Below, in pieces: positions 2,525 through 51,359 of a stretch of DNA of 64,000 bases (position 1 is its first letter; every line of letters starts with the position of its first letter). The notes below the pieces were generated by a model that saw only the letters and a list, made by a program, of their open reading frames with translations, was not told the DNA's origin and ran no database searches. The position numbers and the translations under genes were made by a program. The stretch comes from Bacillus niameyensis. GTDB taxonomy: Bacteria; Bacillota; Bacilli; Bacillales; Bacillaceae_C. The DNA is taken from assembly GCF_001375535.1 (NCBI RefSeq), contig NZ_LN831197.1, positions 124,001-188,000 of the forward strand, written 5' to 3'.

Positions 2525-3346
2525 TTATTCTTCTTCCAATATCTCTTTTACAGTGGATTCAACTTCTGAACGTCCCATTTTTTCTTTTCCACTGCTTAAT
2601 GCTTTTAGTGTCTTGTTAGCTAGTGCTAAAGGAATTTTACAAAATAATATAATGTTTTTTGTATCGATGGATTTGATATATTCATCCGCCATTTTTAAAT
2701 TCTTGGTTGCATATTCGAACATATCTTGACGCTTCCACCCATCAGGAATAAAGTGAACACCACGGTCAGCATCTTCATCTTGGTTACGAAGCATGTTGAC
2801 AGCTTGCAAGCCTCGTCCATATCCAATGGCCAATTCGCGATCTGTTTTTGTCCCGTCATACCATTCCCAAATATCCGAAAGCATGACTCCGACTAAACCA
2901 GCTACATAGTAAGTATACTCATCCAGATCCTCTTTAGTTTTAACCTTCCAATCCTTTTCTACCCATCTTGCCATACCCTCTGCCATAATACTTGTCGACT
3001 CTTTAACTTTTCCGATAATTTCAGCAGGGCATACAGCAAGCCAATCGTTCAATCTTAACGTCACTTCTGGTAAAAGCTCTTGATATGGCTTTAGAAGCTG
3101 TAGATAAGCCGTGTTATCGAAATCAGATTCTAAAAGCTTACTCGTTGATCGAAGCAGATGTTGTTTCGTATGAGAGGATAAATTTTCATGATCCTCAATT
3201 TCATCAATGGCACGCATGCATAAATAAGCAGATCCAACAGTCTTTCTTAACAATGGGTTCAACAATTTAATGGGGATATAGAAAGTTCTACTTGTCAATT
3301 TTAGTATATGCATCGCTTCTTTTTGTAATACGGCTCCAGTACTCAA
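2525..3346 (-). CDS. yisP: Squalene/phytoene synthase family protein, YisP-like
   Basis: This 273-residue all-alpha protein belongs to the head-to-head prenyl synthase superfamily. The N-terminus SRTFYIPIKLLN and AYLCMRAIDEIEDH give the first aspartate-rich motif (DEIED, about residues 47-51). NMLRNQDEDADRG near 186-194 is the second. In B. subtilis the equivalent protein YisP acts on farnesyl diphosphate, reported to release farnesol, and supports biofilm and membrane-domain formation. Whether this copy condenses or dephosphorylates cannot be decided from sequence. It is a single gene flanked on both sides by the type I toxin-antitoxin cassettes, which is an odd setting. The symbol rests on overall resemblance. 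Confidence 0.75.
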   Translation of the reverse strand: MSTGAVLQKEAMHILKLTSRTFYIPIKLLNPLLRKTVGSAYLCMRAIDEIEDHENLSSHTKQHLLRSTSKLLESDFDNTAYLQLLKPYQELLPEVTLRLNDWLAVCPAEIIGKVKESTSIMAEGMARWVEKDWKVKTKEDLDEYTYYVAGLVGVMLSDIWEWYDGTKTDRELAIGYGRGLQAVNMLRNQDEDADRGVHFIPDGWKRQDMFEYATKNLKMADEYIKSIDTKNIILFCKIPLALANKTLKALSSGKEKMGRSEVESTVKEILEEE

Positions 3347-3588
3347 CGAAATATCTCCTTTTCAATCCTAATATTATATCTTGACTCTATTCTACTACTA
3401 TATGGCACTTAAATGTTCTATAAAGTATTTCAAAATAGCAAACCTTATATTATTTTGGTTCATTTTTATAAATTTACGCTTGTCAGTCGAAAATATATGT
3501 AAGCGTATGATGTATTTGACCCACTTCGCATGAGAAGGGGCAGCGTTATTTACCTTCCAAGTGAAGGAATTTCCTATGGAGGGGGAGG

Positions 3589-3703
3589 TTGCCTGTAGAG
3601 ATAGAAAACACTTTTAGGCAAGATGATTCTATTGCATGATATCGCGTTCATTATGTTCGAACGAATTAAAAAACGATCCCTCATTGACTTTAGCAGGCCC
3701 TGA
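3589..3703 (+). pseudogene. Decayed second copy of the type I toxin peptide gene
   Basis: This region parallels the cassette at 2115-2455. A GGAGGGGGAGG RBS precedes TTG at 3589, giving MPVEIENTF, which resembles MDVEVV of the intact copy. That frame then stops at TGA about 14 codons later. The homologous hydrophobic half is found in a different frame from ATG 3623 (MILLHDIAFIMFERIKKR). The ancestral stop also appears mutated to CGA, so that frame runs on to 3703. The 20 bases CCCTCATTGACTTTAGCAGG downstream are identical in both copies. I read this as a frameshifted toxin gene whose antisense RNA signals are still present. Confidence 0.6.
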
Positions 3704-4759: not shown

Positions 4760-4770
4760 GTAAGAATAAC

Positions 4771-4801
4771 AAGTCTCTCGCTGAAAATAAGCGAGAGACT
4801 T
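4771..4801. terminator. Bidirectional hairpin terminator
   Basis: AAGTCTCTCGC and GCGAGAGACTT form an 11-bp stem between two convergent genes. U-tracts are weak on both sides. Confidence 0.65.
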
Positions 4802-4813
4802 AATAATACGTAT

Positions 4814-5464
4814 TCAGTTTTTTAGTAATTCCACGAAATGATTAAGCTTTTCTAACGAACGGATATTTTGGTTGCACTTTTGACTATCATTACAAATATA
4901 GTTACCTCTATTAGTGTACGTTTCTTTGCCGCTTTTTACATTGGCCATGAACAAACCTACTTCCTCATGACAATTACATATAGCACATACTCCTTTTGTT
5001 GTATGCCTAAACGTACCGTGTATTCCCAACAATCTTCCATCAAAATTAAAAATAAGATACTTTTTCTCTGAGCGAATATCATACCAGCCCAGGTAAACAA
5101 TCTCTTGGAAGTCGATGTCCGCTAGGGACGGAACCTTCAATTTCTTAGCTTTAGGAAATAACTTTGCTACATTTTTTTCTGTAATTGTCTTGAAGGGAAT
5201 GACATATGGTTTTAAACGGGCCAGAAAGTTCTTACCCTGAACTTCTTCTTCGATGCTAGTGATGGTGTCGAAAATCGCTTTTTGACTATCATCTAATTCG
5301 GGGAATAGAGCAGCTATCTTATCGACAGCTCCAAACTTTACTGCCTTCAAGACATTAGGATCCTTAACAGTAGAATGAGCGTGCACCATGTTTTTTACTT
5401 GGAAATTTATAAAATTATATTGATCACAACGGATAAATGGTTCTTTATTTAAAAGGCTTGTCAT
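4814..5464 (-). CDS. Elongation factor G-binding protein (FusB/FusC family)
   Basis: This 216-residue protein has the two-domain layout of FusB-type proteins. A helical N-terminal part covers residues 1-80. The C-terminal domain has four cysteines around GVCAICNC (about 161-168) and YICNDSQKC (about 189-197) that would bind zinc. In staphylococci these proteins bind EF-G and rescue ribosomes stalled by fusidic acid. Chromosomal homologues in Bacillaceae are presumed to do the same or to have a housekeeping role. The RBS AAGGAG (complement of 5474-5479) is 9 bases from the ATG and can be hidden in a hairpin. A leader ORF lies upstream (5528-5620), so drug-inducible translational attenuation is likely. 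Confidence 0.85.
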   Translation of the reverse strand: MTSLLNKEPFIRCDQYNFINFQVKNMVHAHSTVKDPNVLKAVKFGAVDKIAALFPELDDSQKAIFDTITSIEEEVQGKNFLARLKPYVIPFKTITEKNVAKLFPKAKKLKVPSLADIDFQEIVYLGWYDIRSEKKYLIFNFDGRLLGIHGTFRHTTKGVCAICNCHEEVGLFMANVKSGKETYTNRGNYICNDSQKCNQNIRSLEKLNHFVELLKN

Positions 5465-5473
5465 TATTATTAG

Positions 5474-5584
5474 CTCCTTATTATTAAATGATTGAAATAA
5501 GGTGCAAAGCCTTGAAAGATTAGGCGATTACTCGATGATCAACCCCATGCAAAGAATCGCCTTCTTAATTGTAGGCTTTGCATG
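5474..5584 (-). promoter_or_regulatory. Candidate translational attenuator of the EF-G-binding gene
   Basis: On the reverse strand the leader region has competing pairings. Segment A (5573-5584) can pair with B (5546-5554) over 9 bp (CATGCAAAG/CTTTGCATG) or with D (5504-5512) over 9 bp (GCAAAGCCT/AGGCTTTGC). A further segment (5555-5561) pairs with C (5523-5529) over 7 bp. The Shine-Dalgarno of the main gene can be masked by CCTTATT (5496-5502) pairing with AATAAGG (5476-5482). Segments A and B lie inside the leader ORF, so ribosome position would choose the fold. Confidence 0.6.
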
Positions 5585-5620
5585 AGATGTTACCGATTCT
5601 GGCCGAAAGGTGTTCGCCAT
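5528..5620 (-). CDS. Leader peptide upstream of the EF-G-binding protein
   Basis: This 30-codon ORF has a very strong RBS (GGAGGTGATAACTA then ATG). The peptide begins MANTFRPESVTSHAKP and ends MGLIIE. It ends 63 bases before the main start codon. Its codons contain the inverted-repeat elements described for the attenuator, which is the arrangement of erm, cat and staphylococcal fusB leaders. The regulatory role is inferred from position, RBS strength and folding. Confidence 0.65.
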   Translation of the reverse strand: MANTFRPESVTSHAKPTIKKAILCMGLIIE

Positions 5621-5751
5621 TAGTTATCACCTCCAGTAAACTGTTTTTATTTTACAATAAATTGAGTTTGTATGGTAGCCTCTAGTTGTTTCCGGCAAGA
5701 CTTGATGGATATAATTAGCCCAATAATCAGAACTGTAAGTGGAGGAATAAA

Positions 5752-17380: not shown

Positions 17381-17413
17381 AAAAAAGAGATAAGAACATT
17401 AAGTCCTTATCTC
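17381..17413 (-). terminator. Riboswitch expression platform: intrinsic terminator before folD
   Basis: Read on the reverse strand, GAGATAAG (complement of 17406-17413) pairs with CTTATCTC (complement of 17387-17394), followed by T6. It follows the ZTP aptamer at once and ends 25 bases before the folD start. Confidence 0.85.
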
Positions 17414-17492
17414 TGCCCAGACGACCCGACCATATAAAACACAGCTCCCTTGTGGTTATTTCCACAAATGTCGTCAGTTACTGTGTCTTTAA
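17412..17492 (-). promoter_or_regulatory. ZTP (pfl) riboswitch aptamer controlling folD
   Basis: On the reverse strand ACACAG (5' of P1) is followed by TAACTGACGACA. A second stem TTGTGG/CCACAA comes next, then GGGAGC, the P1 partner CTGTGT, and the distal conserved segment CGTCTGGGCA. This matches the order of conserved blocks of the ZTP riboswitch (CUGGCGA, GGGGAGC, CCGCCUGGGCA), with a few substitutions. ZTP binding would prevent the adjacent terminator, raising FolD when 10-formyl-THF is short. Confidence 0.8.
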
Positions 17493-25971: not shown

Positions 25972-26115
25972 TGAATCGAATACTCGTTTATGGAAGAAGG
26001 AGCTACCCGCTTCTCGCCTGATCGACGCATTTTTGCAGTTGGCAGGTTTTGAAACGTTCAATTATCATCTCATGATGATTGCTAATGCGGGTTGCTTTGT
26101 ACCCGTATTTTTTAT
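25972..26115 (+). promoter_or_regulatory. L20-type leader of infC-rpmI-rplT with attenuator
   Basis: The leader before infC holds several helices and ends in an intrinsic terminator: AATGCGGGT (26084-26092) with ACCCGTATT (26101-26109), then TTTTTATT. In B. subtilis ribosomal protein L20 binds this leader and promotes termination. Position, gene order and terminator fit that autoregulation. The individual L20-binding helices were not verified. Confidence 0.75.
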
Positions 26116-26208
26116 TGCTTAATTTTAAGATTGAAACGTATATTGAACGTCTATGCTTTACTTTTTCCAAACATGTATTCCTTGAAAATACCTTGGAGGT
26201 GGCTAACT

Positions 26209-51286: not shown

Positions 51287-51359
51287 TGATTCCGACTGGT
51301 CTCGAACCAGCGACCTCCACCCTGTCAAGGTGGCGCTCTCCCAGCTGAGCTACGGAATC
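51287..51359 (-). tRNA. tRNA-Val (anticodon GAC)
   Basis: The reverse strand folds into a full cloverleaf of 73 nt. Acceptor stem GATTCCG/CGGAATC, D arm GCTC-AGCTGGGA-GAGC, anticodon arm CCACC-TTGACAG-GGTGG, T arm GCTGG-TTCGAGA-CCAGT. Anticodon GAC reads valine codons GUC/GUU. The CCA end is not encoded. Confidence 0.95.

Follow-up and report, generated by a model that had tools for sequence, protein, structure and literature searches.

A two-state leader RNA that may control FusB-type and other resistance-like genes in Bacilli through ribosome position on a leader ORF

The window, a 64,000-nucleotide stretch of Bacillus niameyensis DNA, carries a chromosomal gene for a FusB-type EF-G-binding protein, preceded by a leader RNA that, judging from its conserved leader ORF and alternative structures, very probably regulates this gene at the level of translation. 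We put at roughly 0.5 the probability that this is a two-state leader RNA which controls FusB-type and other resistance-like genes by the position of ribosomes on a leader ORF. Comparison among copies supports a Shine-Dalgarno (SD)-led ORF that runs into a segment termed region 1, the pairing of region 1 with either region 2' or region 4, and a hairpin over the ribosome-binding site (RBS) of the target gene. The direction of control and the inducer are proposed with modest confidence.

The FusB-type gene and its leader in the window

The FusB-type gene (216 aa; 5464..4814) lies on the minus strand, as do all parts of its leader. The protein contains the Pfam domains EF-G-binding_N (7.2e-26; 90.9 bits, cut-off 27.1) and FBP_C (1.1e-12; 48.2 bits, cut-off 27.2), both above the curated cut-offs, and its gene is the single PF07299 match in the genome. 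It remained below the NCBIfam cut-offs for the named alleles FusB, FusC, FusD and FusF, the best score being 128.6 bits versus 450 for FusD. FusB-type proteins release translation machinery jammed by fusidic acid. By its domains the protein of the window is of this type, and it may rescue EF-G from fusidic acid. Other RNAs in the window are an L20 leader (25988-26120, plus strand), a ZMP/ZTP riboswitch (17408-17491, minus strand) and a tRNA (51287-51359, minus strand); a squalene/phytoene-synthase-like protein of 273 aa, under the NCBIfam cut-offs, is encoded at 2525-3346 (minus strand). The parts of the leader, and a hairpin beyond the gene, are as follows.

5649..5654, minus strand: candidate -10 box TAAAAT (the other 8 copies of the genus alignment read TATAAT here)
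5626..5634, minus strand: leader SD GGAGGTGAT, 5 nt before the leader ATG (from sequence; conserved)
5528..5620, minus strand: leader ORF of 30 codons, MANTFRPESVTSHAKPTIKKAILCMGLIIE (from the ORF list and sequence)
5574..5586, minus strand: region 1, CUCAUGCAAAGCC, partner of region 2' or region 4 (from the conservation profile and stem tests)
5555..5563, minus strand: region 2, AAGGCGAUU, partner of region 3 (from the fold)
5543..5554, minus strand: region 2', CUUUGCAUGGGG, partner of region 1 in the predicted OFF stem (from stem conservation)
5522..5529, minus strand: region 3, AAUCGCCU, partner of region 2 (from the fold)
5515..5520, minus strand: region 3a, partner of loop 2a, which lies between regions 1 and 2 (from the fold and coevolution over 120 copies)
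5503..5512, minus strand: region 4, AGGCUUUGCA, partner of region 1 in the predicted ON stem, or of region 7 (from stem tests)
5496..5502, minus strand: region 5, CCUUAUU, 5' arm of the RBS hairpin (from stem conservation)
5474..5482, minus strand: region 6, AAUAAGG, 3' arm of the RBS hairpin, with the fusB RBS AAGGAG (from stem conservation)
5453..5459, minus strand: region 7, AAGCCUU, within the first fusB codons and complementary to region 4 (from the genus alignment)
4770..4802, minus strand: intrinsic-terminator-like hairpin 3' of the FusB-type gene (from a terminator scan)

A preliminary description of this DNA had placed a 30-codon leader ORF with a strong SD sequence upstream of the FusB-type gene, and this ORF was confirmed at 5620..5528 (minus strand) with an SD spacing of 5 nt. 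The 191-nt leader folded at -52 kcal/mol, compared with -37.2 kcal/mol (sd 3.85) for dinucleotide shuffles (z = -3.84; 0 of 200 as good). Its stems are 1:2' (CUCAUGCAAAG/CUUUGCAUGGG), 1:4 (UGCAAAGCCU/AGGCUUUGCA) and 2:3 (AGGCGAUU/AAUCGCCU). Stems 1:2' and 1:4 are mutually exclusive because region 1 is common to both, whereas stem 2:3 is nested within the 1:4 rod and is no alternative to it; of the three mutually exclusive stems proposed earlier, two thus stand as such. The fusB RBS is covered by the 7-bp hairpin CCUUAUU/AAUAAGG (regions 5:6), in line with the earlier account. This hairpin was rejected as a transcription terminator, as no U-run follows it and the terminator scan was empty at that place. 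A helix between regions 4 and 7 is possible in 9 copies of the genus, with an A-U pair in the window where its relatives have U-A, a compensatory change. Singly these helices are weak, as 4 to 20% of trials with shuffled start regions gave helices of equal length, and 4:7 pairing was rejected as a general feature, being significant (p <= 0.05) in 2 of 32 copies overall that lie directly before fusB.

Distribution of the element and the genes behind it

The element is not a curiosity of a single genome, and it is conserved to an extent well above what chance would give. Covariance model R1 detected it in 138 of the 397 order genomes and in 50 of 135 genera (149 matches). The broader model R3, run on 398 class genomes that in part also belong to the order sample, found it in 98, with up to 4 copies per genome. 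Among the 397 order genomes, 132 carried both the element and PF07299, 6 the element alone and 38 PF07299 alone; fusB was present in 170 of the 397 and in 132 of the 138 genomes with the element. Within the genus of the window, PF07299 was found in 11 of 16 genomes; 9 complete leader copies were aligned and a tenth (L023) was found by pattern. At L011 the element stands one gene further upstream, before a CD3324 gene (L040). The fusB gene of L008 is broken, cut by the contig end, and the same genome carries the L023 element on another contig.

Searches of Rfam 15 returned no gathering-level match at the element, the three such matches in the window lying elsewhere. The leader of the window gave one chance-level match on the other strand (E = 0.53), and 16 further loci with the element gave no match up to E = 0.05. 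Likewise, no description of this leader RNA was found in the open-access literature among the matches listed.

The genes downstream were assigned to classes by tblastn with fusB and CD3324 queries. The 136 copies examined (134 distinct) comprised 131 of the 149 order matches (18 were left out), 4 more from the genus, and L018. CD3324 (NF040785) is a small protein for which NCBIfam gives a family name only and which weakly resembles Mor activators. Behind 81 copies stand a CD3324-family gene and then fusB, and behind 33 stands fusB directly (fusB-direct copies). In a further 20, CD3324 follows and no fusB was found up to 2.2 kb away (or up to the stretch end where that comes sooner). One copy is 220 nt away from fusB, and another (L127) has no match to either query, although by eye it precedes a broken CD3324 gene. 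In 114 of the 136 copies, fusB comes directly after the element or one small gene further. The genes that come next in the 20 copies with CD3324 and no fusB belong to a GNAT-like group (8), an APH group (5) and a serine-hydrolase-like group (2); the rest are an MFS transporter, an alpha/beta hydrolase, a 730-aa peptidase-like protein in the window's own genome, a stretch end and a gene on the opposite strand (1 each). Domain scans of those groups covered one GNAT-like, one serine-hydrolase-like and two APH members.

A second set of 20 copies, from multi-copy genomes and other genomes of the class, held 8 fusB-direct copies, 1 with CD3324 then fusB, 10 with CD3324 and no fusB, and 1 with neither. 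As read from the ORFs, 360-aa nucleotidyltransferase-like proteins follow in four copies; the first 300 residues of one of them matched nothing in Pfam or NCBIfam up to 1e-5. Also downstream in this set are an ANT(9)-like gene, two SpoU methylases (best NCBIfam match RlmB, with weaker similarity to TsnR/NshR), and GNAT-like and esterase-like genes named by eye only. At L192, an ORF 1714 nt after the element corresponds to the N-terminal 123 residues, up to the stretch end, of a Tet-type ribosomal protection protein, and stands behind CD3324 and one of these nucleotidyltransferase-like genes.

No downstream gene that was scanned scored as high as the curated cut-off for any named resistance allele. 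Both APH and GNAT are broad families, and several downstream genes have no obvious relation to drugs. The downstream families include members that protect against ribosome-targeting drugs. Given that the element also precedes genes other than fusB, it is unlikely that fusidic acid is the only signal. The attenuator reading of the preliminary description is borne out in that a conserved leader ORF and alternative RNA structures do precede chromosomal fusB, but by linking the element to fusB it was drawn too narrowly.

Several further loci were noted. The window's own genome has a second copy (L059; G000:C6:4525059-4525212, plus strand), before a CD3324 gene and the gene for the 730-aa peptidase-like protein. 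L074 carries two copies (2747-2895 and 3512-3660, minus strand) about 765 nt apart, alike over the printed stretch, each preceding a CD3324 gene. The CD3324 family reaches the Clostridia, where a Paraclostridium plasmid carries one of its genes about 1.8 kb upstream of a MATE efflux gene (L212). On a Paenibacillus polymyxa plasmid (L211), CD3324 is followed by an alpha/beta hydrolase gene, and the DNA over the element and the gene start matches L041 at 67%. A Priestia plasmid fusB (L015) follows a macrolide-glycosyltransferase gene, with no R1 match in the 3.6-kb stretch. The CD3324 query gave no match to phage records at E <= 1e-5.

Comparative evidence for two exclusive stems

Stem conservation was scored in two alignments. 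A4 was built with a sequence-only model (R2, E <= 1e-10) and held 101 rows from 100 loci, the remaining loci, many of them near-duplicates, being left out; A5 was a further alignment that included Paenibacillus-like copies. In A4, 99.4% of the cells of 1:2' were paired, and 4 of its pairs (5 cells) showed changes in both partners; for 1:4 the values were 96.5% and 5 such pairs, and for the RBS hairpin 5:6 they were 97.3% and 1. Control structures slid along the alignment were 30-53% paired. In A5, 1:2' and 1:4 were each 99.0% paired and had 5 such double changes each. The strength of this evidence lies in the percentage paired, although a structure drawn from the same sequences is favoured, and compensatory changes are few. 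For 1:2', 4 double changes (A4) and 5 (A5) were observed versus at most 2 in slid structures. For 1:4 and 5:6 together, the corresponding numbers were 6 versus up to 4 (A4) and 7 versus up to 5 (A5), which counts against the model. Examples of compensatory change were seen by eye at L038 and L078 (1:2') and at L074 and L077 (1:4). Region 1 was the most conserved of the stretches profiled.

The loop and start regions were compared by exchanging partners among copies. Pairing of 2a with 3a averaged -6.0 kcal/mol for a copy's own partner versus -4.34 kcal/mol for swapped ones, the own partner being better in 95 of 120 copies (p = 4e-13). Pairing of 3a with the start region beat swapped partners in 57 of 93 copies of the CD3324 class (p = 7e-4), but in only 9 of 27 fusB-direct copies (p = 0.88), which counts against the switch model. 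Helices of at least 7 between 3a and the start-codon region were present in 51 of 93 CD3324-type copies (19.3 expected) and in 12 of 30 fusB-direct copies (4.4 expected). Furthermore, the pair that would perfect an extended RBS hairpin is avoided: where the 5' arm has C, a G stands opposite in 0 of 30 copies, versus 39 of the 80 others (110 copies scored; Fisher p = 2e-7, with relatedness not corrected).

It is very improbable that this is a structured 5' leader whose main role is to set mRNA stability or a constant low level of expression, without induction: the RBS hairpin is indeed predicted in all states, but the joint conservation of two exclusive stems and the kept imperfection of the extended hairpin are hard to explain without switching.

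Ribosome position, direction of control and known systems

Forced-state energies were obtained for 104 of the 134 distinct copies, the other 30 being skipped where patterns failed to place the parts. Opening the stretch from RBS to AUG was on average 3.4 kcal/mol dearer with 1:2' forced than with 1:4 (more than 0.5 dearer in 90 of the 104 copies, more than 0.5 cheaper in 8). Among fusB-direct copies, opening with 1:4 was more than 0.5 cheaper in 19 of 27 and more than 0.5 dearer in 4. A ribosome placed on region 1 resembled the 1:2' state, making opening 3.3 kcal/mol dearer than with 1:4 (more in 89 copies, less in 9), and in 89 of 104 copies 1:4 was the stabler of the two states. On these energies and the stability of 1:4, the gene is predicted to be on when the RNA is at rest and to be turned off by ribosomes moving through region 1. 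Several results count against this direction. The difference is small in the window's own copy (7.7 versus 6.3 kcal/mol) and reversed at L001 (8.0 versus 8.6 kcal/mol). The hairpin 5:6 is predicted in every state, with the SD mostly paired throughout, and mean SD unpairedness over 131 copies hardly differed between free RNA (0.18), a ribosome on region 1 (0.16) and a ribosome on 2' (0.20). Because the SD is mostly paired in all states and the difference in the window copy is small, our confidence in the direction is only modest.

A mechanism along these lines can be outlined. During normal growth, ribosomes would pass through region 1 and disrupt 1:4, and 1:2' would reform first behind them. 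In the 1:2' state, region 4 and the adjoining 3a would be free to pair with the RBS and start region of the target, and the gene would be off. A translation inhibitor, fusidic acid or another, would arrest ribosomes at the leader start or within about the first ten codons, so that region 1, whole or in its 3' half, remains free and 1:4 forms with 2:3. Regions 3a and 4 would then be withdrawn from the start region, leaving only the weak 7-bp hairpin, and the gene would be on. The signal sensed by the leader would be the arrest of translation, neither one drug nor one peptide.

The leader ORF itself was compared across the 136 copies. A TATAAT-like box lies 45-95 nt before region 1 in 101 of the 136, versus 45.6 expected from shuffles; a general promoter scan of the window listed no site at the candidate -10 box (5649..5654). 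By a loose SD pattern with no shuffle control, an SD-led ORF enters region 1 in 130 of the 136 copies, starting 21-45 nt before it (67 at -36). Among these 130, region 1 is read in the frame giving HAKP in most copies in 117, in the frame giving SCKA in many in 12, and in the third frame in 1, the genome's own L059. The stop ranges from within region 1 to past stem 2' (before +28 in 28 leaders, +40 to +48 in 23, +49 to +60 in 68, and at other positions in the remaining 11). The leader amino acids gave no sign of purifying selection, with 46 synonymous changes versus 44.0 expected in 38 close pairs; in the stretch -18..-1, 62 were seen versus 56.7 expected, with codon-position differences at p = 0.06. 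We read this as a requirement for ribosome entry into region 1, with the peptide being of little importance. An arrest peptide as the main sensor was rejected on the absence of a synonymous excess and the use of three frames, and the stall of the leader ribosome proposed in the preliminary description is unsupported as a peptide-specific one, the variable stop position pointing the same way. One frame kept in 117 of 130 leaders is nevertheless more than a pure occupancy sensor needs, and counts against the switch model.

That frame preference is an argument for classical translational attenuation as in plasmid fusB, in which a drug-bound ribosome stalls at particular leader codons, such as those around L-P-x-S/T-x-A-S/T-H-A-K-P, and by its own presence promotes the open state. 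The leader ORF and alternative stems it calls for are present, residues before region 1 recur (L in 65, P in 69, S or T in 70 and A in 62 of 120), and in most codons of -18..-1 conservation is highest at the second position. Furthermore, a ribosome near codon 10 would cover CUCAUG, blocking 1:2' and not 1:4. However, the synonymous counts give no sign of selection on the amino acids, either over the leader or in -18..-1, 13 of 130 leaders, including L059, read region 1 in the other two frames, and the state with a ribosome on region 1 is predicted to resemble the off state. We therefore regard stalling at particular codons as unlikely, though worth keeping in view.

A quite improbable alternative is a binding-site or riboswitch-like RNA, in which a protein (FusB, CD3324 or a ribosomal factor) or a small molecule picks the state and the ORF is secondary. 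The very high conservation of region 1 and the recurrence of a small DNA-binding-like protein, CD3324, beside the element would suit it, and nucleic-acid binding by FusB, possibly self-regulatory, is raised as a possibility in one report (PMC3352095). Against it, neither FusB nor CD3324 is always encoded in cis, as 33 of the 136 copies precede fusB without CD3324 and 20 precede CD3324 without fusB within 2.2 kb. In addition, an SD-led ORF runs into the element in 130 of 136 copies, and the two alternative helices account for most conserved bases.

Control by ribosome position on the leader ORF, the reading we prefer, can be set beside known attenuators. Those of ermC and cat combine a leader ORF, competing stems and an RBS hairpin, and in the erm model a stall on region 1 frees the RBS. 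The element of the window has the same three components, but here an occupied region 1 is predicted to be off-like and the peptide is without detectable selection.

Published reports place pUB101 FusB under translational attenuation, with the regulation of FusB homologues given as unknown (PMC12493156), and attribute the attenuation of fusB to leader ribosomes stalled by fusidic acid, with homologues in other Gram-positive bacteria (PMC12008383, PMC3352095). The Staphylococcus aureus pUB101 leader resembles the element in having a short ORF with a strong SD before a FusB-type gene, and is described as fusidic-acid-induced (PMC12008383, PMC3352095, PMC12493156). In contrast, its leader ORF differs by eye, and the element of the window spans many genera and other genes. 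Up to E = 10, model R1 found nothing in the region upstream of pUB101 fusB (L159). It did not match the leader of Listeria fusB either, and homology with both leaders was rejected. Upstream of Listeria fusB (L016, about 1345-1500) lie another short SD-led ORF and hairpins seen by eye, possibly an independent leader.

The leaders of the ABC-F resistance genes vmlR and msrD are similar in that attenuation-type control is described as acting on a translation-factor resistance protein (PMC9226507, PMC10314930); the genes are different, and the comparison is by description, the element of the window having no Rfam match. Likewise, the uORF of Escherichia coli topAI-yjhQ is described as one uORF sensing several classes of ribosome-targeting antibiotics (PMC12121999), although in another organism and with other genes, and here too the comparison is by description.

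At somewhat less than even odds, we suggest that this RNA represents a so far undescribed family in Bacilli and is a general translation-arrest sensor. Leader translation would keep the genes off, and early arrest by any of several drugs would turn on FusB-type, Tet-type, rRNA methylase, ANT, APH and other genes, often with a Mor-like regulator encoded first. The element shows where to look for the control of fusB homologues, which it adjoins or nearly adjoins in 114 of 136 copies. If several translation inhibitors act on it, it would be a ribosome-arrest sensor reused for different resistance-like genes, and would help to explain how EF-G-binding factors are kept silent until needed in bacteria without known exposure to fusidic acid.
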